DNA of 18,416 bases from Clostridia bacterium (GTDB lineage: Bacteria > Bacillota_A > Clostridia > Oscillospirales > CAG-272): the NCBI GenBank assembly GCA_017472105.1, contig JAFUQY010000023.1:1-18416 (forward strand). Reading direction: 5' to 3'. This document shows positions 2,734 to 18,251 of this stretch, piece by piece; position 1 is the first letter of the stretch; every line of letters starts with the position of its first letter. The position numbers and the translations under genes were made by a program. Below the pieces are notes generated by a model that was given only the letters and a program-made list of their open reading frames with translations, was not told the origin of the DNA and did not search any database.

Positions 2734-2824
2734 AGAAAAAATGATTCCGATCTGGGACAAAACGTGCTTTCCGTCTGTATTGTTATACAGAACCGGTTCA
2801 AAACAAAATAAAGGACGTGACGCC

Positions 2825-3298
2825 ATGAGTGATTATCAGGAGGTTTATACGCGTAATGCTCCGCGGGTGTACCGATTGTGCTATTCCCGATTAGGCAACC
2901 GTGAAGATGCGGAGGACGCGGTGCAGAATGTTTTTGTGCGTTGGCTGAAAAACGGAACGCAGTTTGAGACAGCGGAGCATGAGAAAGCGTATTTTCTGCG
3001 TGCGGCAAGCAATGAATGCATCAATGTGCGCTCCAGTTTCTGGAGAACAAAGCGCGTGGATTTCGAGGATATTCCCGAGCCGTCGTCGGATGACAGCATG
3101 CCGGAAGAACCCGGCGCGATTCTCAGGAGCATTCCGGCAAAATATCGGGAAGTGCTGTATTTATTCTATTACGAGGAGCTGTCATCGGAGGAAATTGCCG
3201 AAACGCTGTCCCGGAACCACAGCACCGTACGGACACAGCTGCAAAGAGGACGCGAGCTCCTGAAAAAAGCTCTGGAAAAATCGAATGAGGAGGATTGA
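2825..3298 (+). CDS. ECF-type RNA polymerase sigma factor
   Basis: A 157-residue sigma-70 family protein of the extracytoplasmic-function group. Region 2 occupies about residues 5-75 (LGNREDAEDAVQNVFVRW is the core-binding/-10 recognition part). An acidic linker follows (80-98). Region 4 covers about 99-150, with an HTH around SSEEIAETLSRNHSTVRTQL. I chose the ATG at 2825 because AAAGGA lies 9 nt upstream and it gives a standard ECF start (MSDYQEVY). An in-frame ATG at 2741 would add 28 unlikely residues and sits at the transcription start region. The next gene begins 1 nt after the stop and encodes a membrane protein, the usual sigma/anti-sigma arrangement. The regulon is unknown. No clear ECF self-promoter is visible upstream; a housekeeping extended -10 is. 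Confidence 0.92.
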   Translation: MSDYQEVYTRNAPRVYRLCYSRLGNREDAEDAVQNVFVRWLKNGTQFETAEHEKAYFLRAASNECINVRSSFWRTKRVDFEDIPEPSSDDSMPEEPGAILRSIPAKYREVLYLFYYEELSSEEIAETLSRNHSTVRTQLQRGRELLKKALEKSNEED

Positions 3299-3299
3299 A

Positions 3300-4652
3300 A
3301 TGAAGAACGAAAAGGAGCAGTTCAGAAATTTGTTTGGTGCATTGTCTCCGGATGCGGAACAGCTTGAGCGGATGGAAAAATGTATTGTTCAGGAAAACAA
3401 CACGCAGAAACGTCACCGTATCCGACCGGCGGCTCTGATTGCGGCTGTTGTACTGATTGGGGCGGGAATCACTGCGGTATCTGCGGCTCCGGCTCTCAGT
3501 CGGTACTTCTTCCCGGATGCGGGAGTTGTCGAGCTTGATGATGAAGCAGAACCGCTCTATCTGATGCTGGACGCAGATACCGGAACAGACGCGGATTTCC
3601 GGATCCAGTATGGGTACTGGTATGACAGTACGGCGCAGTTCTGGATTGAATCGCAGATCCGGTACGAAGAAACCGATGCCGGGATTCTGATGCCTGATGC
3701 GGCGGGATCGGTGGAGCTTCTGCTGGTTGCGAATGACTCGGACGGAGAACTGCGGCAGCAATACCGGATTACGGTAGAGGATGTTTCTGCCGAAGACGCC
3801 ATGAACGGCGTAGTGTTTGCCGGCAGAACTGTGCAGTTTAATCAGGTTCCGGCGCAGTACCATCCCTATATCGCGGAGAACAACGGCATTCGTCTCACCC
3901 TGATTCCGCTGACACAGGACATGACCGCCTTTGCAGCGGAAGCGGAATATGTGAACGGGAACGGAAAGGTGAATCTGTCCGATCATTATTCGTACTACAT
4001 GGACAGCTATGCCGCAGTGAATGCACCGTCCATGGTTCTGGTATCGGAGGACAGCTGTGAATACGTATTGTCGGAAATCGGGGACAGCGATATTTTCGTC
4101 CTCGAAGAAAAGCCGTCCTCTCCCATCACAGGATTCCGTTCGGATGCTTTGACGTTCACTTCCGGCGCATCGGACAGCGTAACCGTTTCGGTTGAAGTTC
4201 CTGCTGACGGAGAAGCCGCCGTGCTTGATCTGGAATTCCTCTTCCCGGATCAGGCTGCATCGGGCAGAATTCATGCGGTAGGTCACAACAACCCCATATC
4301 GGATACGGAGATCATTGATCGTGAGACGGAATTCCCGATGGGATATCTCTCGGTTATCACAGATGTGACGGATCGTAACGGAATCCGGTACTGGTACAGT
4401 GTACACTATACGGAGGAGTTTGAAATACATATGTCGCATTACTACGAAAATGTTGTAAAATCTCCCTACGATCGAGTCATACCGGTGGCGCCGATGTCGC
4501 CGAAAACCCGCGTCAGCCTGGACGAACTTGAGAATCAGATGCACTATACATTCCACTACATTTCCGACAGATCGGATACCGTGGAACTGGTGGTTGACGG
4601 TTATACCGCACTGACTCAGGAAAGCTGGAAAATTGATTTTACGGCTGAATAA
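3300..4652 (+). CDS. Single-pass membrane protein, probable anti-sigma factor with large ectodomain
   Basis: The 450-residue product has a short charged cytoplasmic N-terminus (1-43). One membrane segment follows (about 44-63, AALIAAVVLIGAGITAVSAA). About 385 extracytoplasmic residues then follow, rich in Asp, Glu, Tyr and beta-type sequence. Clostridial ECF sigma factors often have a downstream partner of this layout, whose N-terminus holds the sigma factor while the ectodomain senses a signal. I do not recognise the ectodomain, and no zinc-binding HxxxCxxC anti-sigma motif is present. The start at 3300 is preferred over ATG 3285 because GAGGAGG is spaced 6 nt from it; that ribosome-binding site lies in the last codons of the sigma gene. 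The function is inferred from position and topology. Confidence 0.75.
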   Translation: MKNEKEQFRNLFGALSPDAEQLERMEKCIVQENNTQKRHRIRPAALIAAVVLIGAGITAVSAAPALSRYFFPDAGVVELDDEAEPLYLMLDADTGTDADFRIQYGYWYDSTAQFWIESQIRYEETDAGILMPDAAGSVELLLVANDSDGELRQQYRITVEDVSAEDAMNGVVFAGRTVQFNQVPAQYHPYIAENNGIRLTLIPLTQDMTAFAAEAEYVNGNGKVNLSDHYSYYMDSYAAVNAPSMVLVSEDSCEYVLSEIGDSDIFVLEEKPSSPITGFRSDALTFTSGASDSVTVSVEVPADGEAAVLDLEFLFPDQAASGRIHAVGHNNPISDTEIIDRETEFPMGYLSVITDVTDRNGIRYWYSVHYTEEFEIHMSHYYENVVKSPYDRVIPVAPMSPKTRVSLDELENQMHYTFHYISDRSDTVELVVDGYTALTQESWKIDFTAE

Positions 4653-4656
4653 CATA

Positions 4657-4694
4657 AAAAAGAGAGAACTCATTCTGCATGAATTCTCTCTTTT
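4657..4694. terminator. Bidirectional terminator between the anti-sigma and AraC-type genes
   Basis: An 11-bp perfect inverted repeat, AAAAGAGAGAA (4658-4668) and TTCTCTCTTTT (4684-4694), flanks a 15-nt loop. It has A-rich sequence on the left and T-rich sequence on the right, so it can end transcripts from both converging genes. It starts 5 nt after the anti-sigma stop codon and ends 5 nt before the AraC-type stop. Confidence 0.8.
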
Positions 4695-4698
4695 GCTT

Positions 4699-5571
4699 TC
4701 ACTTCCGCTCCACCGGAATCCACACCTCATAATACCGCTGCTTCTGCCGGATGTCGTGATCCGTCCAGAGATGCAGGATCTCGACGGCGAGGTCGGATTT
4801 CTGACGGTATCCCGACGACGGCAGCCATGAGTCGAAGATCAGCCCGAACAGCTTCGGAAATTCCTCCCATGCGACTCCGCCGGGTTCTGTCCGGAATGCG
4901 GCATATGTTCCCGCGGACAGGGTGAATGTCTCCGCCGGTGCGCCTTCCCGGATGGTGTGCCGTGCGATCATGTACCTGCCGCCCTGCCAGATGCCGTACC
5001 AGACGCCGTCGAATGCGGTGCTTCCGGGTTCATTCCACCTTCCGCCGCAGAGCTGTCCCGGGACGTCGTCGTAGTTGTCCGCCCACATGCTGTGCCGCAG
5101 TTCCTCGCGGTTCCGGTATCCCTGTCCGTCGTACGGATTCGAGATGCCGAAAAGTTTGGTTTCTTCCAGTTCAATCAGTCTGAAATCCATGTCTTCTGCT
5201 CCTTTGATTGTGATGTGGAAGGAAACAGGGGGACACAGCTTCAATGGACCGCCGTTTTTCCGGCAGAGTGACGGCGTGATTCCATGCTGACGCGCGAATG
5301 CACGGGAAAACGCCGCCGCGCTGTCGTAGCCGTATTTCACGGCAATGTCGACGACGGGAGCCCTGCTGTTCAGAAGCTCCTCAGCCGCGAGGGTCAGTCT
5401 GCGCCGCCGGATGTATTCATTCAGCGTCATCCCGGTCATGTAGCTGAAAAAACGCTGGAAGCTGTCCGTGGTGACGCACGCGATTTTCGCCGCTTCATCG
5501 GGATCGAATTCTGCGCACAAATTTGCCTCGATGTATGCGGCCGCGTCGTTCAGCTGTTTGAGTATGTTCAT
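4699..5571 (-). CDS. AraC-family transcriptional regulator with C-terminal GyrI-like effector domain
   Basis: A 290-residue cytoplasmic regulator. The AraC/XylS DNA-binding domain is N-terminal (about 8-105). Its two HTH units are visible around DPDEAAKIACVTTDSFQRFF and VVDIAVKYGYDSAAAFSRAF, ending in the usual GITPS. Residues about 120-290 resemble the AraC-effector-binding/GyrI-like domain (FRLIELEETKLFGI at its start), the Rob/SoxS-with-sensor layout that binds small hydrophobic or amphipathic molecules. I chose the ATG at 5571 because GGAGGTG precedes it by 6 nt; the frame stays open further upstream but without a ribosome-binding site. The glycosidase gene lies 70 bp upstream on the same strand. 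Whether it is a target is unknown. Confidence 0.9.
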   Translation of the reverse strand: MNILKQLNDAAAYIEANLCAEFDPDEAAKIACVTTDSFQRFFSYMTGMTLNEYIRRRRLTLAAEELLNSRAPVVDIAVKYGYDSAAAFSRAFARQHGITPSLCRKNGGPLKLCPPVSFHITIKGAEDMDFRLIELEETKLFGISNPYDGQGYRNREELRHSMWADNYDDVPGQLCGGRWNEPGSTAFDGVWYGIWQGGRYMIARHTIREGAPAETFTLSAGTYAAFRTEPGGVAWEEFPKLFGLIFDSWLPSSGYRQKSDLAVEILHLWTDHDIRQKQRYYEVWIPVERK

Positions 5572-5590
5572 CTGCTTCACCTCCGGACAC

Positions 5591-5599
5591 AGTATATCA
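5591..5599 (-). promoter_or_regulatory. Extended -10 promoter of the AraC-type regulator gene
   Basis: TGATATACT on the minus strand reads as TGn followed by TATACT, about 20 nt upstream of the ATG. The -35 region is weak. Confidence 0.5.
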
Positions 5600-5641
5600 G
5601 AATCATGCGCGCGATGACTGACTTTTTCCGTGCAGGATCGG

Positions 5642-6838
5642 TCAGCCGCGGTATGTGATGGTAACTTCGCCGTTTTCCATGAGCACATCCGCGGTTCTTC
5701 CGAAGACGGGAAGTCCGGTCAGCGATGCCGATGTCATGCCTTCGGGCAGGTTCGGATTTGCGGTGACAGTCTTCGATTCACAGTCGTAGGTGATGCCCAT
5801 CATGCCGAAGACGAACGCGCCGACGCACGCGAAGGAAACCTCCGGATATTCACGCCGCTTCAGCTTGGGAGAAGTGTAGTGACGGAGCCAGTGTTCACCG
5901 CGCTCGGGCTGGTTGTGGCGGTAGAAAATCTCCGCGAGATGGGAGCCGACCTCGACGTTGATCGCATTCGCAAGACCGCGCTGATGGAGCTTGTCAAGGG
6001 TGATGGAGAGCTTTTCCGGATCGTGCGTCGCATGGAAATAGGGCACACATTCCACAGCGATGTGCGAAATATCACCGAGGGAGCCGTCTTTTCTCTTGGT
6101 GAAGTGATAGCGTCCCTGCTCACCGTCCCACCAGCGGTCGATTTCGGAGAGGATTTTATCGCCCCATTCGCGGTAATACGCTCCGTCCGCGCCGTTCAGC
6201 TCACGGATTTCGGCATACGCGAACATTGCGGCAGACTGTGCGGCAAGCAGATCGAGCATCTGAGCCGAACCGCCGCCTTCGCTTTCTTCATAGGACGGAA
6301 TACCGCGTCTTGTACCGGAGCCTTCGGGGATGCCGTCGCCGTTTTTGTCCCATGTTTCGATGTACTGCTTCATGGTCAGCTCATAAAAGTGCAGGAAATC
6401 CTCGCTTTCGATGTAATCCCGGTCGCCGGTCAGCCTGTACATTCTGAGACAGCATGCGAGCAGGTCGAAATTCGCGGGAAGATTGTACCAGAAATCCGTG
6501 TCGGAGGTGTAGTCAACCGGTGCGGGACGGTAGTGCTTGTCGATTTCCCAGAAGCAGCAGTAGTCACGGCTCGCGGCGATGGACTGCACAAACCGCAGGA
6601 GCATGTTCTTCGTGTACTGCTCCAGACCGAGCGCATGGGCACCGTTTGCCTGATGACACACATCGCGGATGCAGAACGCGTCACGGCCAGGAAGTGCGGC
6701 TTCGTACCACGGACCGACGAGATCCTGACGTTCGCCGGACTTCGGATGTACATAATAAAGTGCCTGCTGTTTCGCCCAGTCAAAGCCGGCATTCAGTGCT
6801 TCGTCGGGGCAGCGGAATTGGATGGATCCGATATTCAT
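5642..6838 (-). CDS. Six-hairpin glycosidase-type protein, putative glycoside hydrolase
   Basis: A 398-residue protein without a signal peptide, so probably cytoplasmic. Trp-, Tyr- and Asp-rich helices and the elements GRDAFCIRDVCHQ (51-63), WDKNGDGIPEGSG (163-175) and PEVSFACVGAFVFGMMGI (332-349) suggest an (alpha/alpha)6-barrel of the six-hairpin glycosidase superfamily (GH78/GH95/GH63-like). The C-terminal 40 residues look like the beta-sheet cap seen after such barrels. I cannot assign a GH family or a substrate. Acidic candidates for catalysis are D59, D165, D167 and E172. ATG 6838 has AAAGGA 8 nt upstream; an in-frame TTG at 6844 is too close to it. No promoter of its own is obvious. 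It lies after the terminator of the ABC module and before the AraC-type gene, so it may be a small separate unit. Confidence 0.6.
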   Translation of the reverse strand: MNIGSIQFRCPDEALNAGFDWAKQQALYYVHPKSGERQDLVGPWYEAALPGRDAFCIRDVCHQANGAHALGLEQYTKNMLLRFVQSIAASRDYCCFWEIDKHYRPAPVDYTSDTDFWYNLPANFDLLACCLRMYRLTGDRDYIESEDFLHFYELTMKQYIETWDKNGDGIPEGSGTRRGIPSYEESEGGGSAQMLDLLAAQSAAMFAYAEIRELNGADGAYYREWGDKILSEIDRWWDGEQGRYHFTKRKDGSLGDISHIAVECVPYFHATHDPEKLSITLDKLHQRGLANAINVEVGSHLAEIFYRHNQPERGEHWLRHYTSPKLKRREYPEVSFACVGAFVFGMMGITYDCESKTVTANPNLPEGMTSASLTGLPVFGRTADVLMENGEVTITYRG

Positions 6839-6875
6839 AAACAAAATCCTTTCGTGCGATGCTCAAAGATAAAGG

Positions 6876-6912
6876 AAAAAGGAATTCCCCGGAGTGCGAA
6901 GAATTCCTTTTT
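6876..6912 (-). terminator. Terminator after the ABC ATPase gene
   Basis: A perfect 12-bp inverted repeat, AAAAAGGAATTC (6876-6887) and GAATTCCTTTTT (6901-6912), surrounds a 13-nt loop. Read on the minus strand it ends in a T-rich tract and lies 14 nt after the ATPase stop. It separates the ABC module from the glycosidase gene. Confidence 0.75.
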
Positions 6913-6925
6913 GGATGAACGGAAA

Positions 6926-7657
6926 TTAATAGGAGGTAACGGTCTTCTTGGTGCCGCCGATGTAGTCACGGTGGAGGGTGAGAATACCGTTGTCCATGCG
7001 GAAGATACGGTCTGCGTGGTCAGCGATTGCAAGGTCGTGGGTAACCATGATGAGGGTCTGACCCATTTCTTCTCTGGTCTTGAGAAGGAGCTTGAGAACT
7101 TCATCCGCGTTGTTGCGGTCGAGGTTACCGGTAGGTTCGTCGGCGAAGAGGATATCGGGCATGTTAATCATTGCACGCGCGATTGCAACTCTCTGCTGCT
7201 GACCGCCGGAAAGCTCGGAGGGAAGGTGGTTCAGACGTTCGGTGAGCTGGAGGGTTTCCACCAGACGGCGGAGGGTTTCCTGATAGGAGAGCTCGGACTT
7301 GTTGCACATCATGGTGGGGATGAGGATGTTTTCCAGAGCGGTGAACTGAGGAATCAGGTTGTGTCTCTGGAATACGAAGCCCATGTTCATACCGCGGAAG
7401 CGGCTGAGCTCGTCGGCGGACATCTTGGTGATATCCTGACCGCGGATCATAACGCGTCCGGCGTCACAGGAGTCCAGACCTGCACAGATGTGGAGGAAGG
7501 TGGACTTACCGGAACCGGAAGTACCGATGATAGCGACGAATTCGCCGGGTTCTACTTTGATGCTTGCGCGGTTAACAGCGGTGATGACCGTGTCGTACTG
7601 CTTATACTGCTTGATAACGCTTTCGGTTTGCAGCATGTATTCAATGGTATCTGCCAT
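6926..7657 (-). CDS. ABC transporter ATP-binding protein, LolD/MacB type
   Basis: A 243-residue nucleotide-binding subunit with every expected motif: Walker A GTSGSGKS (45-52), Q-loop Q97, signature LSGGQ (149-153), Walker B ILFADE (169-174) followed by PTGNLD, and the H-loop H207. The PTGNLD form and its FtsX-type partner place it in the MacB/LolD/FtsE-like group. Those transporters usually act by mechanotransmission at the membrane and export lipids, peptides or antibiotics. It is encoded 77 bp after the permease and would be co-transcribed with it. The ATG at 7657 has AAGGT 9 nt upstream. The substrate is unknown; Bacillota relatives include bacitracin/lantibiotic-resistance exporters, but no sensor kinase is adjacent. 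Confidence 0.94.
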   Translation of the reverse strand: MADTIEYMLQTESVIKQYKQYDTVITAVNRASIKVEPGEFVAIIGTSGSGKSTFLHICAGLDSCDAGRVMIRGQDITKMSADELSRFRGMNMGFVFQRHNLIPQFTALENILIPTMMCNKSELSYQETLRRLVETLQLTERLNHLPSELSGGQQQRVAIARAMINMPDILFADEPTGNLDRNNADEVLKLLLKTREEMGQTLIMVTHDLAIADHADRIFRMDNGILTLHRDYIGGTKKTVTSY

Positions 7658-7670
7658 TTTATATTACCTT

Positions 7671-7687
7671 AGCTGTGGGAAACAGCC
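7671..7687 (-). other. Small intercistronic hairpin between permease and ATPase
   Basis: AGCTGT (7671-7676) and ACAGCC (7682-7687) can form a 6-bp stem (one G-U pair) with a 5-nt loop in the mRNA, just before the ATPase ribosome-binding site. There is no T-tract, so it is not a terminator. It could set the ATPase/permease ratio. Confidence 0.35.
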
Positions 7688-7734
7688 GGATCCTTTCTCA
7701 AATCAATAAGTATTTCCTTGGGTTTCTGTAAAAA

Positions 7735-10005
7735 TTACTCGTCTCCGCCGAATTCGTGACCTGCGCCGCCGTTGTCAAGGGAGTAGCGGTTCTTGTAATA
7801 GCTGCGGAAGGGCAGGTAGGTGGAGAAGAAGCCGCACGCTACGGACATGACGATGCTGATGAGGATTGCGTACCAGGGCATGTAGAACATGTAGCGTACG
7901 TTTTCCTTGGTGAAGTAGGGCATCATGACGTTGTAGACGTAGAAGAGGATGTAGCTGCCCGCATAGCTGAGGATGATGGATACGAACAGGGACATGACTG
8001 CCATGGAAAGACCGCCCTGCAAGTAGATCATCTTGATTTCCTTTGCTACCGCACCGATGGACTGAAGGATATTGAATTCCTTTTCACGCTTGGTGTAGTA
8101 CAGAGTCTGGGAGAAGAACCAGATCAGCGGGGAGATAAAGAGAATGAGAACGGAAATGCAGATGTAGAGCTCGTTGTAATGCTTGTCGTGAGCAACTGCG
8201 GTGAGAAGGGTGTTTTCCTTGTTTCTGACCTTGACGTCACCGTAGTCGTGGCTCCATTCCTGAACTTCGCGGTACAGGGTCTTTACTTCATCGACGGTAG
8301 CTTCCTGATCGACGTAGATGTTGAAGGAGGTAGCCTTCGGGGTCTTGCCGGTCATGGTCTTGTAGTCATCGAGGTTGAGGTAAATGGGAGTGGAGCCGGA
8401 GGGAACGTCGTGAAGAACCGCACCGACAGTGAATTCGTAGTATTCGTAACGGAAGAATTCGATCTGATTCTTCAGAAGCGCACGACCGGATACGTTGGTA
8501 TCAACCGCCTTGATCTGACCGGTCTTCTTGGAGAGGTAGATCTTGTCGCCGACGTCGAACTTGTAGGTGGGAACGTTGGAGATTGCGTCGCCTACGATTA
8601 CGGTACCGGGCGTGAGAATGGAGGTCAGGTCACCGGAGTATTCGTAGTCTTCGAGAATCTTGATCTGTTCCTCGGGAATTGCGGTGTAGATGATTTCGGA
8701 GTTGACACGCCAGTACTTGTCCTGGGTATCAAAGTCGGTGCCCGCGTATGCAACGAGGTTCTTGAATGCACGGACGTCCTTCTTTTCCACGATCATGTGG
8801 GAAGCAAGCTCGTAGCCTTCGGTGGTGTTGTCGTTGATTTCAACCGCACGCACACCGTCAAGGGCGTAGAGTTCGTCGGACATGATTTCATCGTATTCGA
8901 AGCCGGAAGCCGTCATGTCGATTTCAAACTGCGGACGGGGATAATACAGGTCGGTGGTGTAGATATCCGCCATGTAAAGACCCATGATGAACAGTGCGCA
9001 GAATACGATCGCGGAGGTGAGAAGCTGGATATTGTACTTGCGGAAACGCCACATGGAGTAGAATTCGTACTTGACGGGGAAGTTTTCCGCGAAGATGTTG
9101 AAGGAACGCTGGGGAGAGGTAACAAGGTTGGAGTTGTCTTCGGTCACGATGAGGGACATGGGATCCTTCACGGACATTATCTTCATGGGAGTCCAGCAGG
9201 ATGCCAGAATAACGAAGAGGGTGAAGAGGAACACCTTGAGGATGGAAAGCGGATTGAAGATGAAGCCGAAACCGTTGCCGAGATAGAGGCAGAAGGAAAT
9301 CAGCGTGGAGAGAAGCATCGAAGGAACGAAGGTCACGATGAAGATGACGAACAGTTCCCAGAAGCAGGTCGAGAAGAGCATCTTGAAGTCCGCGCCGAAC
9401 GTCAGATAGATACCGTACTGGAACTTGTACTGGTTGATTCTGATGTTGTAAAGCTGCGTGAGCAGGAAGATACAGACCGCGAGAAGGATGAGGGTGATGA
9501 GGAAGAACGTGACGGCGTTGGCGCGCTCGTTGTCCTCAAAGGTCAGAAGCTGCGTGGTTCGTTTGGAGAAGGATGATCCCTCCGACCCGAGCGCTGCAAG
9601 ATCCTTTTCGTATTTTTGTGAGAATTGCTTCAGGCTGTAATCGATATCGTTGATGAAGAGCAGATATACGTCGTAGCGTTCTTCACCGGTGAAGTTGTTG
9701 GTGTACTGATACGTATCGACAACCTTGAATATCGTATCCGATGCGAATACGGTACCGCGGTCCTCGATGAGGTAGAGCGCCTGGTCATGGTTCAGACCAA
9801 GGAGTACCATATGATAGTTATATTCTTCGGTGACATGCTGGTATTCCACGTAGTTGTTGTTGTCGTTGGAAACCGTCATCATGCCGTAAAGAAGCTGAAC
9901 AATGATGATTGCAATGAAGAAGCACACGTACTGCTTGAAATTGAAGAATACGGACTTCCATGCAATGGATATGCTTCTTTTTAAGTATTCAAATACCTTT
10001 TCCAA
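7735..10005 (-). CDS. ABC transporter permease, FtsX/MacB-like
   Basis: A 756-residue membrane protein. Eight probable membrane segments are visible: about 26-43, 165-187, two between 208 and 243, 254-272, 326-346, and three after residue 630 (ICISVLILFISPLIWFF, then around SMAVMSLFVSIILSYAG, and YAILISIVMSVACGFF). An ectodomain of about 120 residues follows segment 1 and a larger one of about 280 residues follows segment 5. This is the duplicated FtsX layout. The cytoplasmic element REKEFNILQSIGA after segment 6 matches the coupling-helix region of this family. The start is TTG at 10005, with AGGAGG 10 nt upstream; no better-placed ATG exists. It is the first gene of the ABC module. The cargo is unknown. 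Confidence 0.88.
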   Translation of the reverse strand: MEKVFEYLKRSISIAWKSVFFNFKQYVCFFIAIIIVQLLYGMMTVSNDNNNYVEYQHVTEEYNYHMVLLGLNHDQALYLIEDRGTVFASDTIFKVVDTYQYTNNFTGEERYDVYLLFINDIDYSLKQFSQKYEKDLAALGSEGSSFSKRTTQLLTFEDNERANAVTFFLITLILLAVCIFLLTQLYNIRINQYKFQYGIYLTFGADFKMLFSTCFWELFVIFIVTFVPSMLLSTLISFCLYLGNGFGFIFNPLSILKVFLFTLFVILASCWTPMKIMSVKDPMSLIVTEDNSNLVTSPQRSFNIFAENFPVKYEFYSMWRFRKYNIQLLTSAIVFCALFIMGLYMADIYTTDLYYPRPQFEIDMTASGFEYDEIMSDELYALDGVRAVEINDNTTEGYELASHMIVEKKDVRAFKNLVAYAGTDFDTQDKYWRVNSEIIYTAIPEEQIKILEDYEYSGDLTSILTPGTVIVGDAISNVPTYKFDVGDKIYLSKKTGQIKAVDTNVSGRALLKNQIEFFRYEYYEFTVGAVLHDVPSGSTPIYLNLDDYKTMTGKTPKATSFNIYVDQEATVDEVKTLYREVQEWSHDYGDVKVRNKENTLLTAVAHDKHYNELYICISVLILFISPLIWFFSQTLYYTKREKEFNILQSIGAVAKEIKMIYLQGGLSMAVMSLFVSIILSYAGSYILFYVYNVMMPYFTKENVRYMFYMPWYAILISIVMSVACGFFSTYLPFRSYYKNRYSLDNGGAGHEFGGDE

Positions 10006-11004: not shown

Positions 11005-11442
11005 TCAGTTGGCTTCGATCAGATCCCTGAGCTGAAGAATCGCTTCGCGGTAGCCGTCCAGACCATGACCTGCGATGGTGAACTTCGCCGCAAGGGACAC
11101 GTAGGAGAACTTCCGGAATTCTTCACGGGTGTTGATGTCCGAGATGTGTACTTCCGCTGTGGGAATGCCGACCGCTTTGAGCGCATCGAGAATCGCAACG
11201 CTGGTGTGGGTGTATGCCGCCGGGTTGATGACGATGCCGTCGAACACACCGTAGGCTGCCTGAATTTTGTCAACGATGTCGCCTTCGTGGTTGGACTGAT
11301 AGGTTTCGTATTCGATTCCCGCTTCGTCACAGGTGTCGCCCACCAGCTTGAGCAGTGCCGCGAAATCCTGTCTGCCGTAGATCGAAGGCTCGCGGATGCC
11401 AAGCATGTTTAGATTGGGTCCGTTGATGATGAGAAATTTCAT
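11005..11442 (-). CDS. aroQ: 3-Dehydroquinate dehydratase, type II
   Basis: A 145-residue enzyme of the usual type II length. Clear family motifs are INGPNLNMLGIREPSIYG with catalytic Y22, QSNHEGDIVD, the NPAAYTHTSVAI loop with the active-site His, and VHISDI. It dehydrates 3-dehydroquinate to 3-dehydroshikimate, step 3 of the shikimate pathway, as a dodecamer in the cytoplasm. It is the last gene of the aromatic operon. Its ATG overlaps the aroE-aroK stop (ATGA), with GAGGTGA upstream inside the preceding gene. The operon terminator follows 4 nt after the stop. Confidence 0.97.
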   Translation of the reverse strand: MKFLIINGPNLNMLGIREPSIYGRQDFAALLKLVGDTCDEAGIEYETYQSNHEGDIVDKIQAAYGVFDGIVINPAAYTHTSVAILDALKAVGIPTAEVHISDINTREEFRKFSYVSLAAKFTIAGHGLDGYREAILQLRDLIEAN

Positions 11443-12671
11443 AAGCCGATCACCTCAAGAATGTGCTTCGCGTTCTCTTGTGCAGAGGGCTGAACATCGA
11501 TTTCGTATTCGGAAACCTCTTCGTAGAAGGGACGGCGTACTTCGTACAGCTTTGCAAGATCGTTCGCCTGAGAAACCGGACGTCCGTCCTTCGGGAGCAG
11601 AGCGAGATCCCGCTTGAGGAATACCACGGTGCTGTTCTGACGGATCATCCGACGGTTGCCGGGACGAACGGGAGTGCCGCCGCCCATGGAGAGAACCATG
11701 CCGGAGAGCTTGGAAACCTCCTCGAGGCACTGCGTTTCGAGATCGCGGAAATAGGGTTCCCCGTGCTGTGCGAAAATTTCGGGAATGGGCATGCCCGCTT
11801 TTTCCGTGATGTAGTCGTCAAGGTCGATGAATTCGCGTCCCGTGAGAGCTGCGAGCGCGCGTCCGATGGTGCTCTTTCCGGATCCGGGCATGCCGACGAG
11901 GGTGATGTTCTTTTTCGCCAGCTGAACCTTGCGGGTTACGGTTGCGAGAACATCGTCGGAGATTTTTGTGCCGGTGAACAGCTCGGATGCGACCTTTGCC
12001 TGTGCGACCAGCATGGTCAGACCGGAGATGCAGGGAATACCGCGTTCCTCGGCGTCAAGGATGATGGCGGTCTTCGAGGGATTGTAGACCACGTCAACGA
12101 CGCCGCAGAGGTGCGGGAAATTGTCCATGGGAACGGGGGAACGTCCGTTTTTAGGGTACATACCCACGGGAGAGGTGTTGATGAGGATTTCGGCGTCCGA
12201 GTATTTCGGCAGATTTTCGGGCGTGTTGCCTTCCTCGGTCAGAATCCGGATTTCCTTTGCACCGCGGTCAGCCGCAACGGTACGGGCCGTCATGGATGCA
12301 CCGCCGTCACCGATGACAACGACGATTTTGTCCTTCACGTCGATTCCCGCGCAGTCGAGCATGTATGCAAAACCGAAATAGTCGGTGTTGTCGCCGCGCA
12401 GACGTCCGTCGGGCAGATGGGTGACGGTGTTGACCGATCCGATGCGCAGGGCTTCGTCGGAGATCACGTCGAGGAACTGCATGACGGTTTTCTTGTAGGG
12501 AATGGTGACATTGGTGGCGTCGTAGCGGTCGGAGCGGATGTATTCACCCACTTCCTCCTCGTGAAGTTCGGTGAGGGTGTAGTCGTAATCGCCCAGTAAG
12601 GCGTGAATTTCAGGGGAATAGCTGTGACCGAGGGGCATGCCGATCAGTCCGCATCTTAATTTCTTGCTCAT
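11439..12671 (-). CDS. aroE-aroK: Bifunctional shikimate dehydrogenase - shikimate kinase fusion
   Basis: A single 410-residue ORF encodes two enzymes. Residues 1 to about 245 are shikimate dehydrogenase: GHSYSP with shikimate-binding S17 and S19, NVTIPYKK with catalytic K60, GDNTDYFG with D97, the NADP-binding GDGGAS (121-126, Asp where Ala is usual) and INTSPVGMYP. Residues about 255-410 are shikimate kinase: Walker A GMPGSGKST (260-268), DLDD (283-286), the FRDLE arginine R309, the GGG stretch at 330-332 and lid arginine R364 in DGRPVSQ. The linker is only about 10 residues. The product would reduce 3-dehydroshikimate and phosphorylate shikimate, steps 4 and 5. Each half has its full set of key residues, so both are likely active. 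ATG 12671 overlaps the aroC stop (ATGA); GGAGG lies 10 nt upstream. I see no frameshift or internal stop. Confidence 0.95.
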   Translation of the reverse strand: MSKKLRCGLIGMPLGHSYSPEIHALLGDYDYTLTELHEEEVGEYIRSDRYDATNVTIPYKKTVMQFLDVISDEALRIGSVNTVTHLPDGRLRGDNTDYFGFAYMLDCAGIDVKDKIVVVIGDGGASMTARTVAADRGAKEIRILTEEGNTPENLPKYSDAEILINTSPVGMYPKNGRSPVPMDNFPHLCGVVDVVYNPSKTAIILDAEERGIPCISGLTMLVAQAKVASELFTGTKISDDVLATVTRKVQLAKKNITLVGMPGSGKSTIGRALAALTGREFIDLDDYITEKAGMPIPEIFAQHGEPYFRDLETQCLEEVSKLSGMVLSMGGGTPVRPGNRRMIRQNSTVVFLKRDLALLPKDGRPVSQANDLAKLYEVRRPFYEEVSEYEIDVQPSAQENAKHILEVIGL

Positions 12672-13765
12672 CTTTCCATATCCTCCCAGTTATCGGAGTC
12701 AAGCAGCGCGTCGTAAACAGCAATGGCAAGCGCCGCTTCAAATACGGGAACGGCACGCTGAACGATGCAGGGATCGTGACGTCCGCCGATCTCGAGGGTT
12801 GTATTTTCCATTTTGTCCATGTCGACACTCTGCTGGGGCTTGCCGATGGACGGAGTGGGCTTGATAGCCGCGCGGCAGATCAGAGGCATACCGATGGTCA
12901 TACCGCCGAGGATTCCGCCGCAGTGATTGGTGACGGTGGTGATGGTTCTGCCGTCCGTGGTGTACGGGTCGTTGTTTTCGGAGCCGAGAGCCGACGCGGA
13001 CGCAAATCCGTCACCGAACTCGATTCCTTTGACGGCGGGAATACCGAAGACGACGGAGGAAATTCTGCCCTCCATGCCGCCGAACATGTGCTCACCGATG
13101 CCGACGGGAAGTCCGACTGCCGCAAATTCGACGACACCGCCGACGGAGTCAAGCTCCATACGTGCCGCGTCAATGACTTCCTTCATTTTTTCACCCGCAT
13201 TCCGGTCAATCACGGGAAAATCCGTGGGAATTGCGTCAAAATCAGCCTTCGACAGGTTGACCGGGTCAAACGGTTTGTCCTTCACGGCTCCGACCGAGGC
13301 AATGTGCGCACCGATGAAGGTGCCGCGGCGTTCGAGTTCCTGCTTGAGGATGCCGCCGATGATGCACATGGGAGCGGTCAGTCTGCCGGAGAAATGTCCG
13401 CCGCCGCGAAGATCCGCGTGTCCGTGGGATTTCACCATTGCCGGATAATCCGCGTGGGACGGACGGGGGATGAACGCGAGCTTTTTGTAGTCGGACGAAC
13501 GCTGGTTGGTGTTGCGGATCACTGCGCGGAGCGTGCCGCCCGTGGTAACGCCGTTTTCCAGACCGTCCGTGAATACCGGGATGTCCGGCTCCTTGCGGGA
13601 GGTCGTGAGCTTGCTCTGTCCGGGAGCGCGGCGTGCCATGAATGCCTGAAGTCCGGCTTCGTCCACGCGGATTCCGGCGGGTAACCCTTCTGCGATCACG
13701 CCGATTTCCTCATCGTGCGAGCCGCCGAAGATCCGGATGTTCAGATTGATTCCGTAGCTTGTCAT
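12668..13765 (-). CDS. aroC: Chorismate synthase
   Basis: A 365-residue FMN-dependent lyase that converts EPSP to chorismate, step 7. The signature regions are present as variants: GGSHDEEIG with H17, APGQSKLTTSRKE, RPSHADY with the second catalytic His H104, RGGGHFSGRLTAP, and GGRHDPCIVQRAVP near the C-terminus. The first motif has Asp where Gly is common (SHD for SHG). The GGHFSGR form, with His and Gly for the R and A of proteobacterial enzymes, is what I recall from clostridial enzymes. The ATG at 13765 has AAAGGAGA 5 nt upstream. The gene begins 11 nt after the aroA stop, the loosest junction downstream of tyrA, and so has its own strong ribosome-binding site. Confidence 0.97.
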   Translation of the reverse strand: MTSYGINLNIRIFGGSHDEEIGVIAEGLPAGIRVDEAGLQAFMARRAPGQSKLTTSRKEPDIPVFTDGLENGVTTGGTLRAVIRNTNQRSSDYKKLAFIPRPSHADYPAMVKSHGHADLRGGGHFSGRLTAPMCIIGGILKQELERRGTFIGAHIASVGAVKDKPFDPVNLSKADFDAIPTDFPVIDRNAGEKMKEVIDAARMELDSVGGVVEFAAVGLPVGIGEHMFGGMEGRISSVVFGIPAVKGIEFGDGFASASALGSENNDPYTTDGRTITTVTNHCGGILGGMTIGMPLICRAAIKPTPSIGKPQQSVDMDKMENTTLEIGGRHDPCIVQRAVPVFEAALAIAVYDALLDSDNWEDMER

Positions 13766-13776
13766 GGTTGTCTCCT

Positions 13777-15024
13777 TTACCGGCAGAGTTTTTCAAGCTC
13801 CGCGAAGAATGTGGGATAGGATTTTGCCGAGCATTCCGCACCTTCAATGGTCACGGGATTCTCGCAGATCAGGGACGCAGCCGCCGCCGACATGGCAATC
13901 CGGTGATCCCCGAACGAGGAAACCGTGCCGCCGGTCAGCGTTTTTCTTCCTTTAATTATAATAGTGTCACCGTCGAGCGTACAGTCACCGCCGAGGGAAG
14001 TCAGGGTCGCGCGGATTGTCTCCATGCGGTCGCTTTCCTTGAGCCGCAGTCTGCCGCAGTTTCTGATGACGGTGGTGCCTTCCGATGCCGCCGCGATCAC
14101 GGACAGAACCGGAATCAGATCCGGGATTTCCGCCGCATCAATTGTCGCTGCACGGAGGACGTTTTTCTTTACGGTGTACCGGTCGCCGTCTCTCGAGCAG
14201 TCCGCACCGAATGCGGCGAGAATGTCGAATACGGCGCTGTCGCCCTGCGCGGTGTCGGGATTGAGCGAGGTCACGGTCACGCCTTCCTCGGAGAGCGCAC
14301 CGATGCACAGCATGAACGCCGCGGAGGACCAGTCGCCTTCCACGGTCACGTCTCCGTCCGGTGCAGTGAAGCGGGATTCGGGAATCGTGAATTCTGCACC
14401 GCCGTCGATGACGTTTACGCCGAACTGTCGCACGGTGGCAAGGGTGAGATCAATGTAGGGGCGGGATTCGACTTTTCCGGTCAGCCGGATGACGGAGTTT
14501 TCACCGGTCAGGGGCAGTGCCAGAAGCAGTCCGGTTGTGAACTGGGACGATACGCCGCCGTCGAAGGTGAAATTCCCGCCGGTCAGTCTGCCGGAGATGT
14601 GAAACGGATTCGAGCCCTGCGGGGACAGCGTCACACCGTGCTCCTGCATGATTTCGTACAGCGGAGACAGCGGACGGTCCGGGAGACGCCCGTGCAGAAC
14701 GAAATCCGCGTCAACACCCAATGCGGCAGTCACGGGAAGCATGAACCGCAGGGTGGATCCGGATTCGCCGCAGTCGAGGGAGGCACCGTTCACGGGAGTT
14801 TGGATGGGATTGACGGTGAAAATGCCGTCGTTGTATGTGATTTCAGCCCCGAGAGCAGTCAGACAGCGCACGGTAGCGTCAATGTCGTCGTTTGTCCGGT
14901 CACAGCGGATCCGGCACGGTCTGTCAGCAAGCGCCGCACAGATCAGAAGCCGGTGCGCATGGGATTTGGACGGCGGAGCGATGACGGTGCCGCGGGGCTT
15001 GGGTTGATTCAGTGTGATGTTCAT
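13777..15024 (-). CDS. aroA: 3-Phosphoshikimate 1-carboxyvinyltransferase (EPSP synthase)
   Basis: A 415-residue enzyme, slightly shorter than E. coli AroA at 427. It joins PEP to shikimate-3-phosphate, step 6. Visible active-site elements are PSKSHAHR with K20, CGESGSTLRF (85-94) at the PEP loop, VSSQFTTGLL, IPDLIPVLSV with D302, LKESDR with E330, FGDHR (371-375) and the C-terminal SKSYPTFF with K401. The PEP loop differs from the E. coli NAGTAMRP sequence: the Gly equivalent to E. coli G96 is kept, but Ser replaces T97 and Phe replaces P101. The ATG overlaps the aroB stop (ATGA). Confidence 0.97.
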   Translation of the reverse strand: MNITLNQPKPRGTVIAPPSKSHAHRLLICAALADRPCRIRCDRTNDDIDATVRCLTALGAEITYNDGIFTVNPIQTPVNGASLDCGESGSTLRFMLPVTAALGVDADFVLHGRLPDRPLSPLYEIMQEHGVTLSPQGSNPFHISGRLTGGNFTFDGGVSSQFTTGLLLALPLTGENSVIRLTGKVESRPYIDLTLATVRQFGVNVIDGGAEFTIPESRFTAPDGDVTVEGDWSSAAFMLCIGALSEEGVTVTSLNPDTAQGDSAVFDILAAFGADCSRDGDRYTVKKNVLRAATIDAAEIPDLIPVLSVIAAASEGTTVIRNCGRLRLKESDRMETIRATLTSLGGDCTLDGDTIIIKGRKTLTGGTVSSFGDHRIAMSAAAASLICENPVTIEGAECSAKSYPTFFAELEKLCR

Positions 15025-16070
15025 TCTGCGATACCGAGACGGATGATGTCCGTCAGTTCGTCCGTGGTGAATTTCATCAGCTCCGATACACCGATTTCTC
15101 TGGGAATGACGAGGGAAATGGTGTTTCCGCGGAGCTTTTTGTCGTGCAGGGTGCCGCGGTGCAGATCTTCCACGCTGTGACGGGAACAGAGCATGGGATC
15201 GAGTCCCGCCGCACGGAGCGTATCATCGAGATCGGTGAGAAGTTCATCGGAGCAGAGTCCGCGTGCGGCACAGGCTTTCGTGATGACATGCATACCTGCC
15301 GCGACCGCGTGACCGTGGCGGATGGTGTAGTCGGAGAGAACCTCGAGCGCATGCCCAACGGTGTGACCGAGATTGAGTTTCTGCCGCTCGCCGTTGTCCT
15401 TGAAGTCGCGGGAGACGATGTCGCGCTTGTCGGTGACGCACATCTCGATGATTTCCGCGGTCGTGAGCGTGTGATTCCGGATGCCGTCGAAGAGAGGACG
15501 GTTGCCGAGCATGCCCATCTTGATCGCTTCCGCCATGCCGTCGGTGAAGAAATCCGCGGGCAGCGTGGAGAGCGTATCGGGATCGCAGACAACGAGTGCA
15601 GGCTCATGGAACGCACCGACGAGATTCTTGCCCGCCGAGAGATCCACCGCAGTCTTGCCGCCGACGGAGGAATCCACCATCGCGAGCAGGGACGTGGGAA
15701 TCTGCACGAATTTGATGCCGCGGAGATAGCATGCCGCCGCAAATCCGGTCATATCTCCCGTGACACCGCCGCCGAGCGCGAAAATCACGTCGGTGCGGGT
15801 CAGGTGTTCGGCTGCGAGATGCTCGAGAATTTCGGAAAATGTGCGGAGATTCTTCTGCTCCTCGCCGTGCGGGAAGACAAAGGACTGCGCCACATCAAAT
15901 CCGGCGCCGGTGAGACTGTCTTCCACGGTTTTTCCGTAGAGCGGGTACACATTGTCGTCGGAGACCACCACGGTACGGCAGGGCTTGACCGCTTCTGCGG
16001 CGTACTGTCCGACCTTTGCGATGGCTCCGGCTTCAATGATGATTTCGTATGTTCCGGCGTTCAGTCTCAT
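15021..16070 (-). CDS. aroB: 3-Dehydroquinate synthase
   Basis: A 349-residue NAD- and metal-dependent enzyme that cyclises DAHP to 3-dehydroquinate, step 2. The motifs run in normal order: FPHGEEQKN (67-74), GGGVTGDMTGFAAA (100-113), FVQIPTSLLAMVDSSVGGKT (121-140), KNLVGAFHEP (148-157), AEAIK with metal ligand E181, LNLGHTVGHALE with H236 and H240, and RHGHAVAAG with H254. The ATG overlaps the tyrA stop (ATGA). The sequence just upstream has no GGAGG-like site, so initiation probably depends on ribosomes finishing tyrA. The gene's own stop overlaps aroA. Confidence 0.97.
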   Translation of the reverse strand: MRLNAGTYEIIIEAGAIAKVGQYAAEAVKPCRTVVVSDDNVYPLYGKTVEDSLTGAGFDVAQSFVFPHGEEQKNLRTFSEILEHLAAEHLTRTDVIFALGGGVTGDMTGFAAACYLRGIKFVQIPTSLLAMVDSSVGGKTAVDLSAGKNLVGAFHEPALVVCDPDTLSTLPADFFTDGMAEAIKMGMLGNRPLFDGIRNHTLTTAEIIEMCVTDKRDIVSRDFKDNGERQKLNLGHTVGHALEVLSDYTIRHGHAVAAGMHVITKACAARGLCSDELLTDLDDTLRAAGLDPMLCSRHSVEDLHRGTLHDKKLRGNTISLVIPREIGVSELMKFTTDELTDIIRLGIAE

Positions 16071-16912
16071 GTGGGCGTACCGTCAGCGGATTCCTTGGCG
16101 AGCCGTCCTTCGCGGAGCAGGTTCAGCAGGGTTTCACGGTCTTCGTTTTCCATTGCGGACTTGTATGCGTTGAGACAGCCGACGAGCTGGTCGATTTCGT
16201 TGATGAGGTTATCGCGGTTTTCCATGAACAGCTCGGTCCACATGGTTTCGTTCAGCCATGCAACACGGGTCAGATCCTTGTAGGAGCCTGCGGAGATGCC
16301 GACATGATTCTTTTCCTGAGCAACGGGGCTCTTGACGTAGGCATTGGACACAACGTGCGCCATCTGGGAGGTGTAAGCGATCACGCGGTCGTGTTCTTCA
16401 GCGGTCGTGAAGGTGAACTTGCCGAAGTGTGCGGGAACGAGGAGGCATTCGATCTTGTCATACAGTGCGATGTCGTCGAAATTCGGAGGAACGATGACCA
16501 TCGGTGCGCCGGCGAACATGTCTTCCTTGGAATTCTTGATGCCGGAGAGATGCAGACCCGCCATCGGATGACCGCCGACGAAGGTGAAGCCGTATTCTTC
16601 CGCCAGTGCAAAGCCGGTTTCGCAGATCTGACGCTTGGTGCCGCACAGGTCGATGACCATGGTTTCACGTGCGATTTTGGAAGCGTTGTCGCGGAGCCAC
16701 TGGCATGCGATGTCAGGGTTGACCGCGAGGAGAATCAGGTCGCAGGTGCCGAGATTTTCGTCCGTGAGCTTGTCATCCGCGATTCCGGAGAGAAGTGCGT
16801 ATCCGAGTGTGATTTCGTTGGCATCTGCGCCGTAAACGGTCTGACCGCTTTTCTTGTATGCTTTGGCCATGGATCCGCCGATGAGACCCAGACCGACAAT
16901 TCCTGTTTTCAT
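16067..16912 (-). CDS. tyrA: Prephenate dehydrogenase (TyrA family)
   Basis: A 281-residue NAD(P)-dependent dehydrogenase of the monofunctional TyrA type. The Rossmann motif is VGLGLIGGS (6-14). GGHPMAGLHLSG holds the conserved substrate-site His (H115), and the helical C-terminal half is typical for the family. There is no chorismate mutase or ACT domain. It would oxidatively decarboxylate prephenate to 4-hydroxyphenylpyruvate, on the way to tyrosine; arogenate use cannot be excluded. ATG 16912 is preferred over the in-frame TTG 16924 because the GAGGT ribosome-binding site lies between them. It is the second gene of the operon and the only branch-specific one in view. Its stop overlaps aroB. 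Confidence 0.93.
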   Translation of the reverse strand: MKTGIVGLGLIGGSMAKAYKKSGQTVYGADANEITLGYALLSGIADDKLTDENLGTCDLILLAVNPDIACQWLRDNASKIARETMVIDLCGTKRQICETGFALAEEYGFTFVGGHPMAGLHLSGIKNSKEDMFAGAPMVIVPPNFDDIALYDKIECLLVPAHFGKFTFTTAEEHDRVIAYTSQMAHVVSNAYVKSPVAQEKNHVGISAGSYKDLTRVAWLNETMWTELFMENRDNLINEIDQLVGCLNAYKSAMENEDRETLLNLLREGRLAKESADGTPT

Positions 16913-16970: not shown

Positions 16971-17978
16971 TCAGTCGTTCACGAGTTCGAGAACCTTGTT
17001 CACAGCCTTCATCACGTCGTCGAACTGATCGGGAGTGAGGGACTGGGGACCGTCGCAGAGAGCAGCCTTGGGGTTGTTGTGAACTTCGATCATGATACCG
17101 TCCGCACCGCATGCAGCAGCCGCGAGAGCCATGGGCTTTACGAGTCTGGAGAGACCGGTTGCGTGGCTGGGGTCAACGATTACGGGGAGGTGGGAGAGCT
17201 CATGCAGCATGGGAACTGCGGAAAGGTCGAGGGTGTTTCTGGTGTAGGTTTCGAAGGTACGTACGCCGCGTTCGCAGAGGATGACGTTTTCGTTGCCGCC
17301 TGCCATGATGTATTCCGCGGACATGAGCAGTTCCTTGAGGGTATTTGCGAGACCTCTCTTGAGGAGAATGGGCTTCTGGGTCTTGCCGAGTTCCTTGAGA
17401 AGCTCGAAGTTCTGCATGTTTCTTGCGCCGACCTGGATAACGTCAACGTCTTCGAAGAGGGGCAGGTGCTTTGCGTTCATGATTTCGGTTACGATGGGAA
17501 GACCGGTTTCCTTCTTTGCTTCGAGAAGGAGCTCGATACCGTCAGCGCGGAGACCCTGGAAATCGTAGGGAGAAGTACGGGGCTTGAACGCACCGCCGCG
17601 GAGCATGGTCGCACCGGAAGCCTTGACAGCCTTTGCAACGGTGATGATCTGTTCTTCGGATTCAATGGAACAGGGACCTGCGATAACGCCGAAAATATTG
17701 CCGCCTACGCTGGTCTTGCCGGAAATGTCGATAACGGAATCGTCCGGATGGAACTTTCTGTTGGCACTCTTGAAGGGGTCGGAAATACGCTTTACGGATT
17801 CAACGATTTCGAGACCGTTGAGCATATCTTCGTCGATTCTGGAGGTGTCACCGATGAGGCCGATAACGGTCTGGAATTCACCGCAGAAGGGATGTACACC
17901 CACGCCCTGGGACTTCAGCCATTCGCAGAAATTGTCGATCTGTTTCTGTGTGGTTCCGTTCTTGAGTACAGCAATCAT
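16971..17978 (-). CDS. aroF: 3-Deoxy-7-phosphoheptulonate (DAHP) synthase, type I-beta with N-terminal regulatory domain
   Basis: A 335-residue enzyme that condenses PEP and erythrose-4-phosphate, step 1. The catalytic barrel begins at about residue 95: AGPCSIES with metal ligand C103, RGGAFKPRTSPYDFQGL (127-143), LLKRGL, CERGVRTFE, DPSHATG with H272, EVH with E298, and D309. Residues 1-70 form a ferredoxin-like domain as in Thermotoga maritima DAHP synthase (338 aa), where it mediates feedback inhibition by Tyr and Phe. The gene symbol is used differently among species (aroF, aroG, aroA in Bacillus). The ATG at 17978 has AGAGGA 6 nt upstream. It is the first structural gene of the operon and lies after the leader peptide and attenuator. 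Allosteric control here is inferred from the family. Confidence 0.97.
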   Translation of the reverse strand: MIAVLKNGTTQKQIDNFCEWLKSQGVGVHPFCGEFQTVIGLIGDTSRIDEDMLNGLEIVESVKRISDPFKSANRKFHPDDSVIDISGKTSVGGNIFGVIAGPCSIESEEQIITVAKAVKASGATMLRGGAFKPRTSPYDFQGLRADGIELLLEAKKETGLPIVTEIMNAKHLPLFEDVDVIQVGARNMQNFELLKELGKTQKPILLKRGLANTLKELLMSAEYIMAGGNENVILCERGVRTFETYTRNTLDLSAVPMLHELSHLPVIVDPSHATGLSRLVKPMALAAAACGADGIMIEVHNNPKAALCDGPQSLTPDQFDDVMKAVNKVLELVND

Positions 17979-18041: not shown

Positions 18042-18089
18042 AAAAAAGCGAATCTCCCGACAGTGTCAATACTGTGGTGATCCGCTTCT
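18042..18089 (-). terminator. Attenuator: Rho-independent terminator upstream of aroF
   Basis: In the minus-strand RNA, AAGCGGAUC (18087-18079) pairs with GAUUCGCUU (18054-18046) through one G-U pair. Inside, ACAGU (18075-18071) pairs with ACUGU (18064-18060) around the 6-nt loop AUUGAC, and two CC/GG pairs bridge the two stems. A run of six U (18047-18042) ends it. It lies 51 nt after the leader-peptide stop and about 65 nt before the aroF start, with no gene of its own to end. It therefore acts as a conditional terminator in the operon leader. Confidence 0.88.
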
Positions 18090-18157
18090 ATATTTTCTAT
18101 AAAAACTATTATCGCAGCACAAACACTCTTACTTTATTTCACAGCGTAAAGTAAGAG
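18062..18157 (-). promoter_or_regulatory. Pause hairpin and candidate antiterminator of the aromatic operon leader
   Basis: Strand 1, CUCUUACUUUA (18157-18147), covers leader codons Ser13, Tyr14 and Phe15. It pairs perfectly over 11 bp with strand 2 (18136-18126) around a 10-nt loop that contains the end of the leader ORF. Segment 18127-18115 (AGUGUUUGUGCUG) can pair with 18074-18062 (CAGUAUUGACACU) at 12 of 13 positions (9 Watson-Crick, 3 G-U). It then can add GAU (18113-18111) with AUC (18081-18079). That pairing would open the upper and inner part of the terminator. The hairpin and the antiterminator share only 2 nt (18126-18127), so their exclusivity needs folding to confirm. Confidence 0.65.
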
Positions 18158-18192
18158 GTAAAATATGCAAAATATACGACAAACGTTTTCAT
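18139..18192 (-). CDS. Phe/Tyr-rich leader peptide of the aromatic operon
   Basis: A 17-codon ORF, MKTFVVYFAYFTSYFTL, begins about 25 nt after the predicted transcription start. Its ATG has AAGGA 9 nt upstream. Four codons are Phe (4, 8, 11, 15) and three are Tyr (7, 10, 14), and there is no Trp. Seven aromatic residues of 17 is far above what chance gives. The ORF is followed by a terminator and then by DAHP synthase. Known attenuator peptides such as those of pheA, pheST and trp have the same size and bias toward the end product. By analogy the ribosome would stall here when Phe- or Tyr-tRNA is scarce, and so let transcription continue. The peptide itself probably has no function. Confidence 0.85.
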   Translation of the reverse strand: MKTFVVYFAYFTSYFTL

Positions 18193-18222
18193 GATTTGAT
18201 ATCCTTCCGTGATGATGGTGTA

Positions 18223-18251
18223 ATTTTAGCACAAGCTAACTGAATTGTCAA
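18223..18251 (-). promoter_or_regulatory. Consensus promoter of the aromatic (shikimate) operon
   Basis: On the minus strand, TTGACA (18246-18251) is a perfect -35. Exactly 17 nt separate it from TAAAAT (18223-18228), preceded by TGC, which gives an extended -10. The predicted start is near 18216. This is the strongest promoter in the window, as expected for an operon controlled mainly by attenuation after initiation. Confidence 0.88.

Follow-up and report, generated by a model that had tools for sequence, protein, structure and literature searches.

Organization of the aroF Locus

The window analyzed here, that is, the whole stretch of 18,416 nucleotides of clostridial DNA, carries on its minus strand a run of aromatic biosynthesis genes assigned by Pfam matches: aroF (DAHP synthase, 16971..17978; domains DAHP_snth_FXD and DAHP_synth_1), tyrA (prephenate dehydrogenase, 16067..16912, with the ATG start picked by inspection), aroB (3-dehydroquinate synthase, 15021..16070), aroA (EPSP synthase, 13777..15024), aroC (chorismate synthase, 12668..13765), a single ORF in which aroE and aroK are fused (shikimate dehydrogenase and shikimate kinase, 11439..12671) and aroQ (type II 3-dehydroquinase, 11005..11442). 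In the fusion ORF, the match to the dehydrogenase C-terminal domain fell below the cut-off. Because the genes share a strand and, judged by ORF coordinates, overlap or are separated by gaps of at most about 60 bases, aroF to aroQ likely form a single transcription unit, with aroQ as its final gene. No prephenate dehydratase was found in the window's operon. When 10 relatives' genomes were inspected, 7 of them (G001, G003, G005, G006, G007, G009, and G010) had a prephenate dehydratase match downstream of the leader or of aroF, on its contig and strand and no more than about 8 kb away. Elsewhere in the window (2741-10005) there are, by resemblance only, sigma-factor-like and anti-sigma-like ORFs, an AraC-type regulator, a glycosidase-like ORF, and an ABC transporter with a large permease.

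The preliminary description of this DNA had placed an attenuator in the interval 18042..18251, which leaves the aroF start codon (17978) outside, and had listed a promoter, a ribosome-binding site, a short ORF rich in Phe and Tyr, a hairpin, a competing pairing, and a terminator ahead of the DAHP synthase gene. All of these elements can be read on the minus strand, in the order promoter, ribosome-binding site, leader ORF, leader hairpin, alternative pairing, terminator, and aroF. The candidate promoter (18223..18251, minus strand) is of the sigma-70 type, with TTGACA at 18251-18246, a 17-nt spacer, TAAAAT at 18228-18223, and a TG before the second hexamer; it matches 11 of 12 consensus bases, but the promoter scan of the leader region that picked it up returned 2 sites versus a mean of 1.7 in shuffled sequences, which counts against its significance. 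Sequence inspection places a ribosome-binding site, GGAAGGA (18202..18208, minus strand), 9 nt 5' of the leader ATG. The leader ORF (18139..18192, minus strand) encodes 17 residues, MKTFVVYFAYFTSYFTL, among them four Phe and three Tyr; a stretch with seven F/Y in 12 residues together with a ribosome-binding site was reached in only 1 of 2,000 dinucleotide shuffles of the region upstream of aroF.

The structural elements, all on the minus strand, follow. The 5' arm of the leader hairpin, CTCTTACTTTA (region 1, 18147..18157), lies over the Ser-Tyr-Phe codons, and its 3' arm, TAAAGTAAGAG (18126..18136), overlaps the start of region 2 (18114..18132). This conserved region, GUAAGAGUGUUUGUGCUGC, has two possible partners, the leader arm and the 5' arm of the terminator. 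Region 3 (18062..18074) comprises the terminator 5' arm and loop and is the antiterminator partner of 18127-18115; by inspection, 12 of 13 positions pair, with a duplex energy of -14.8 kcal/mol. The intrinsic terminator (18042..18088) consists of a hairpin at 18088-18045 and six T ending at 18042. This hairpin (-20.2 kcal/mol, z = -5.6) was equalled in stability by none of 200 shuffled sequences, and the extended leader hairpin (-19.7 kcal/mol, z = -3.2) by 1 of 200. A simple terminator scan of the window's leader region called no terminator, which we attribute to interior mismatches in the stem that defeat such a scan. No Rfam leader family matched the window up to E 5; a permissive-E search returned four chance-level matches, none of them in the leader, and these were discarded.

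Conservation of the Leader ORF and Its Aromatic Codons

Relatives were collected by a scan of genome contigs, from which the best 80 of 589 aroF-matching loci (63-82% identical) were retained. Their titles are mostly Clostridia, Clostridiales, Eubacteriales, Oscillospiraceae, Ruminococcaceae, or Lachnospiraceae, and the sources of these best 80 are mostly metagenome-assembled genomes, many from animal gut. Named strains among them are Sporobacter termitidis and Angelakisella massiliensis; S. termitidis DSM 10068 (L010) carries the leader element. An aroF like that of the window was also seen in loci titled Treponema, Spirochaetales, Bacteroidaceae, Sutterella, or Lentisphaerae; the oddly titled loci are L016, L027, L034, L050, L054, L058, L059, L069, L075, and L077, with a leader ORF present in L050, L058, L059, L075, and L077. 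Such cases point to mislabelled bins or transfer.

Upstream regions of at least 240 bases could be evaluated for 80 aroF genes, those of the window and of 79 relatives (L004 was left out, as it lies at a contig end). A comparable leader ORF precedes 67 of these 80 genes from the best 80 of 589 loci, a number obtained from 70 automatic calls after removal of L022, L030, and L052 by eye; in the other 13 upstream regions, no convincing leader ORF was found. A ribosome-binding site is present before 61 of the 67 leaders, and 64 start with ATG. An automatic strict test, which demands at least six F/Y in 12 residues plus a ribosome-binding site, was passed by 57 of the 80 upstream regions from the same best 80 of 589, whereas the average for dinucleotide shuffles was 0.45 and no antisense strand passed. 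Across the 67 leaders (again from the best 80 of 589), F and Y together account for 33.5% of residues in frame, versus 10.6% and 12.4% in the other two frames; the individual shares are 17.9% for Phe, 15.5% for Tyr, and 0.2% for Trp. The low Trp content would fit an operon serving Phe and Tyr. Four loci (L003, L006, L039, and L080) may represent a second leader subtype, with a GFYFFSAG-like stretch, little match to region 2, and the same aroF.

Codon changes were compared in 91 leaders, the 67 above and 24 from loci found with the covariance model described below, using 106 pairs that were at least 50% identical. In aromatic codons, single third-base changes were synonymous in 162 cases versus 2 that were not; second-base changes comprised 38 F-to-Y exchanges and 15 others, and first-base changes numbered 21. 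All these counts come from overlapping pairs of related leaders, so that the events are not independent, but the direction of selection is clear: aromatic residues are retained, and Phe and Tyr interchange. The preliminary description had held that a short ORF or aromatic codons unconserved in relatives would speak against an attenuator, and in both respects conservation was found.

These counts bear on what the leader would sense. One refinement of the attenuator reading is that a single amino acid is sensed and the codons of the other are merely tolerated. The relevant passage of a review provides a precedent, the aroR-controlled operon of Corynebacterium glutamicum, which responds to Phe and on whose transcription Tyr availability has no effect (PMC11802643). 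We regard such single sensing as possible but somewhat unlikely for the clostridial leaders, given the 38 interchanges between F and Y and the similar shares of the two residues. It is very unlikely that the RNA structure itself is the sensor, as a riboswitch or a protein-binding leader, with an incidental ORF whose F/Y content is a by-product of a need for UUUUAC pairing. Region 2 and a UUACUUU stem are indeed conserved as nucleotides, as such a sensor would require, but third-base changes that almost always keep Phe or Tyr, the excess of F-to-Y among second-base changes, an approximately threefold enrichment of F and Y in frame, and the prevalence of ribosome-binding sites and ATG starts all argue for a translated peptide.

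The Terminator and the Two Competing Helices in Relatives

A terminator-like hairpin of -12 kcal/mol or lower before a T run was detected in 62 of the 67 loci with a leader (from the best 80 of 589), whereas four shuffled sets gave 18, 12, 19, and 7 of 67. With the threshold set at -18 kcal/mol, the numbers were 48 of 67 versus 3, 2, 1, and 1. Leader ORFs act on translation in some other systems, but it is extremely improbable that this leader governs the accessibility of the aroF start site instead of termination, since the terminator-like hairpin and T run stand between leader and aroF well above the shuffled level, and since the ribosome-binding site of the window's aroF lies about 50 nt past the terminator and is unpaired with region 2 in the predicted fold.

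Region 2 scored above the 95th percentile of shuffles in 43 of the 67 loci, a partly circular measure because its consensus was written by eye from the same loci. We then compared, for the 62 loci that have both parts, the pairing of each element with its own partner and with partners permuted among loci. Region 2 paired with its own terminator arm at -13.6 kcal/mol versus -9.9 kcal/mol when permuted (z = -10.6; 0 of 20,000 permutations), and the leader arm with its own region 2 at -14.3 versus -11.0 kcal/mol (z = -10.4; 0 of 20,000). On average, both helices are matched locus by locus. As controls, spacer against terminator arm gave z = 0.1, and leader arm against terminator arm, where pairing is not expected, gave z = -4.0. 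The own partner was the single best one in 7 of 62 loci for the 2:3 helix and in 9 of 62 for the 1:2 helix, because the sequences of the loci resemble each other; together with the control value of -4.0, this indicates that relatedness explains part of the signal. RNAalifold applied to an alignment of 35 sequences (A1) produced a conserved 8-pair stem that involves the 3' arm of the leader hairpin; for 4 of its pairs, at least one sequence has both bases changed.

When the nascent RNA of the window was folded up to a point short of the terminator 3' arm, it gave hairpin 1:2 with the leader free and the 2:3 helix (13 pairs) with region 1 masked. With region 1 masked and the whole terminator present, the minimum-energy fold was the terminator and not the antiterminator; read-through would hence need a kinetic step, with 2:3 formed first and persisting. 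The window is among the 31 of 62 loci whose nascent RNA reproduced the full switch by minimum free energy. Even with the leader free, 18 of 62 formed the antiterminator, and masking region 1 gave a 2:3 helix of at least 7 pairs in 53 of 62 loci versus about 30 expected with a shuffled region 2.

With respect to region 2, the stop codon of the leader ORF lies upstream in 19 of the 67 loci (from the best 80 of 589), within the region in 18, and past it in 30, counts that are affected by the uncertain position of region 2 in low-scoring loci. Since many leader ORFs end in or beyond region 2, a ribosome that is not stalled would, in many relatives, itself cover region 2.

A Model for Attenuation of the aroF Operon

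The locus and its relatives combine the features by which an attenuator is recognized: codons for the regulated amino acids clustered in a short ORF, whose translation we infer from the ribosome-binding site, the start codon, and codon selection; a hairpin 1:2 that overlaps these codons; an alternative antiterminator 2:3 that excludes the terminator, although folding gave the full switch in only half of the 62 loci; and an intrinsic terminator ahead of the structural gene. The architecture of ribosome-mediated attenuation that the preliminary description recognized is thus borne out by the conserved ORF and its aromatic codons, by both competing helices, and by the terminator. On the strength of these sequence features, we consider the leader of the aroF operon to be very probably a ribosome-mediated transcription attenuator, which would sense charged tRNA-Phe and tRNA-Tyr.

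In the proposed course of events, RNA polymerase would start near 18216, and a ribosome would follow on the leader ORF. When Phe-tRNA or Tyr-tRNA is scarce, the ribosome would stall on the UAU/UUU/UAC/UUU codons and cover region 1. Region 2 (18132-18114) would then be free and could engage region 3 (18074-18062) as soon as the latter is made, while the 3' arm of the terminator has yet to be transcribed; with 2:3 paired, transcription would proceed into aroF to aroQ. With both tRNAs charged, the ribosome would continue as far as the stop codon, which lies in the loop of the hairpin; in many relatives it would instead proceed through region 2. Region 2 would be held by the ribosome or by hairpin 1:2, allowing the terminator (18088-18045) to form.

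Distribution and Target Genes of the Leader Element

A covariance model, R1, was built from alignment A1 and searched against genomes. At E ≤ 0.01 it matched 55 distinct places across the searched genomes. Going downstream on the strand of the element, the first gene with a match was aroF at 49 places, tyrA at 2, aroB at 2, and a phenylacetate-CoA-ligase-like gene at 1; the remaining place (L086) is cut by a contig end. Five weaker matches (E 0.016-0.079; L091-L095), in loci without aroF, were taken as chance. In the 10 genomes behind the loci, 8 of which lie behind R1 training sequences, one strong match each was found; nine of these matches precede aroF, and the tenth lies at the end of a contig, its aroF probably beginning another contig.

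Because only part of the candidates was scored, genome counts for R1 are lower bounds. At least 23 of 197 genomes in the order of G006 match at E ≤ 0.001, the central genome included. In family samples (E 0.01), matches were found in at least 8 of 40 genomes for G001 and at least 13 of 41 for G006; three genomes common to the G001 family sample and the G006 order sample place G001 and G006 in one order. All 4 genomes in the genus of G624 match. A sample of the phylum, searched with reduced sensitivity, gave 3 of 398 genomes, the central one included, and the element is therefore no general feature of the phylum.

The tyrA places (L175 and L222) and the aroB places (L178 and L224, with E 0.0012 and 0.0034) come from G624 and G768, two genomes that share a genus and in which tyrA and aroB have separate leaders. 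A search for the window's aroF in G624 came back negative, a result that is itself weak.

Enzymes resembling phenylacetate-CoA ligase can, together with an oxidoreductase, make Phe from phenylacetate. The ligase gene downstream of the leader in L189 is a partial ORF. A ligase match was present in 66 of 150 genomes; among 29 further ligase loci taken from these, one more R1 match was found, in L193 (E 1.1e-9), so that the leader element precedes phenylacetate-CoA-ligase-like genes in two genomes (L189, 1-783, minus strand; L193, 1333-2811). Salvage of Phe through such a gene may share the leader control. No oxidoreductase of this kind was seen beside two ligases that were read further (L225 and L226). 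Two loci, L205 and L218, have F/Y-rich ORFs before paaK-like genes with no R1 match.

T-Boxes and Other Amino Acid Leaders in the Same Genomes

Aromatic genes of Bacillota are usually described as controlled by T-boxes or TRAP. T-box control of aroF was considered and rejected, as a covariance search found no T-box (RF00230) in the window or in the 20 of the 80 aroF loci that were scanned; these 20 loci also gave no match at gathering scores to any Rfam amino acid leader. All 10 genomes examined do contain T-boxes, the number of matches per genome ranging from 5 to 14. In three of them (G002:C27, G004:C17, and G006:C31), the TrpE N-terminal domain was detected, in each case about 160-240 bases past the end of a T-box match, two of the three T-box matches being below the gathering score. 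It was not found in the other seven, an absence that is soft because the completeness of these genomes is not stated. Leaders of other genes were also sought: no convincing His-rich ORF was seen upstream of hisG in 9 loci, and no convincing further Phe/Tyr leader upstream of pheA in 10 loci; one GTG-start ORF was noted in L154.

Taken together, these data make it reasonably probable that this clostridial order has its own leader-peptide regulon for Phe and Tyr supply. One conserved element with a dual-pairing region 2 would control aroF, tyrA and aroB where the operon is split, and a paaK-like gene in some genomes, working beside trp T-boxes where trp genes exist. A mechanism of the E. coli type appears to be conserved across many Clostridia, most of them uncultured, that have T-boxes in the same genomes. 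From the element one would predict which genes respond to charging with Phe and Tyr, among them a ligase with a possible role in arylacetate salvage; if so, the leader before the paaK-like gene would tie salvage of Phe and Tyr from arylacetates to tRNA charging.

Comparison with Known Systems

The attenuators of enterobacterial pheA (pheL), trp, and his are the classical cases of ribosome-mediated attenuation. The window leader has the same logic and the same order of parts, but differs in lacking a match to any Rfam leader family up to E 5.

The preliminary description had thought such a regulator unusual and perhaps undescribed in Bacillota. This holds in part. In the open-licence literature, we found no description of a Phe/Tyr leader family for this clostridial order. 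Comparable leaders had, however, already been predicted or described. Predicted His leader-peptide attenuators of Firmicutes share the leader peptide, antiterminator, and terminator and likewise occur in Bacillota, but they precede histidine genes and belong to the B. cereus group, Peptostreptococcaceae with Lutispora, and Erysipelotrichales (PMC2965389, PMC9413887). A Leu/phe leader of Lactococcus lactis is among the RNAs listed in a survey from 2010 (PMC2864571). Closer in its target is the uORFC-13-1 motif, a predicted uORF with Phe codons, a promoter, and a terminator before aroF (PMC8632094). Its 24 unique examples come from Acholeplasma and unassigned environmental sequences, whereas the window's element is clostridial; as far as the text of that report describes the motif, the two could possibly be identical.

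The C. glutamicum aroR leader was likewise described earlier. According to the review passage cited above, it stands before the aroF operon (Neshat et al., 2014) and answers to Phe limitation (PMC11802643). Like the present leader, it comprises a leader peptide with aromatic codons (Phe-Tyr-Phe) before a DAHP synthase operon, with stalling under Phe limitation raising transcription; unlike it, and as judged from the review's description, its host is an actinobacterium. The mechanism of attenuation is thus a classical one, and what seems new is a Phe/Tyr leader family in this clostridial order.
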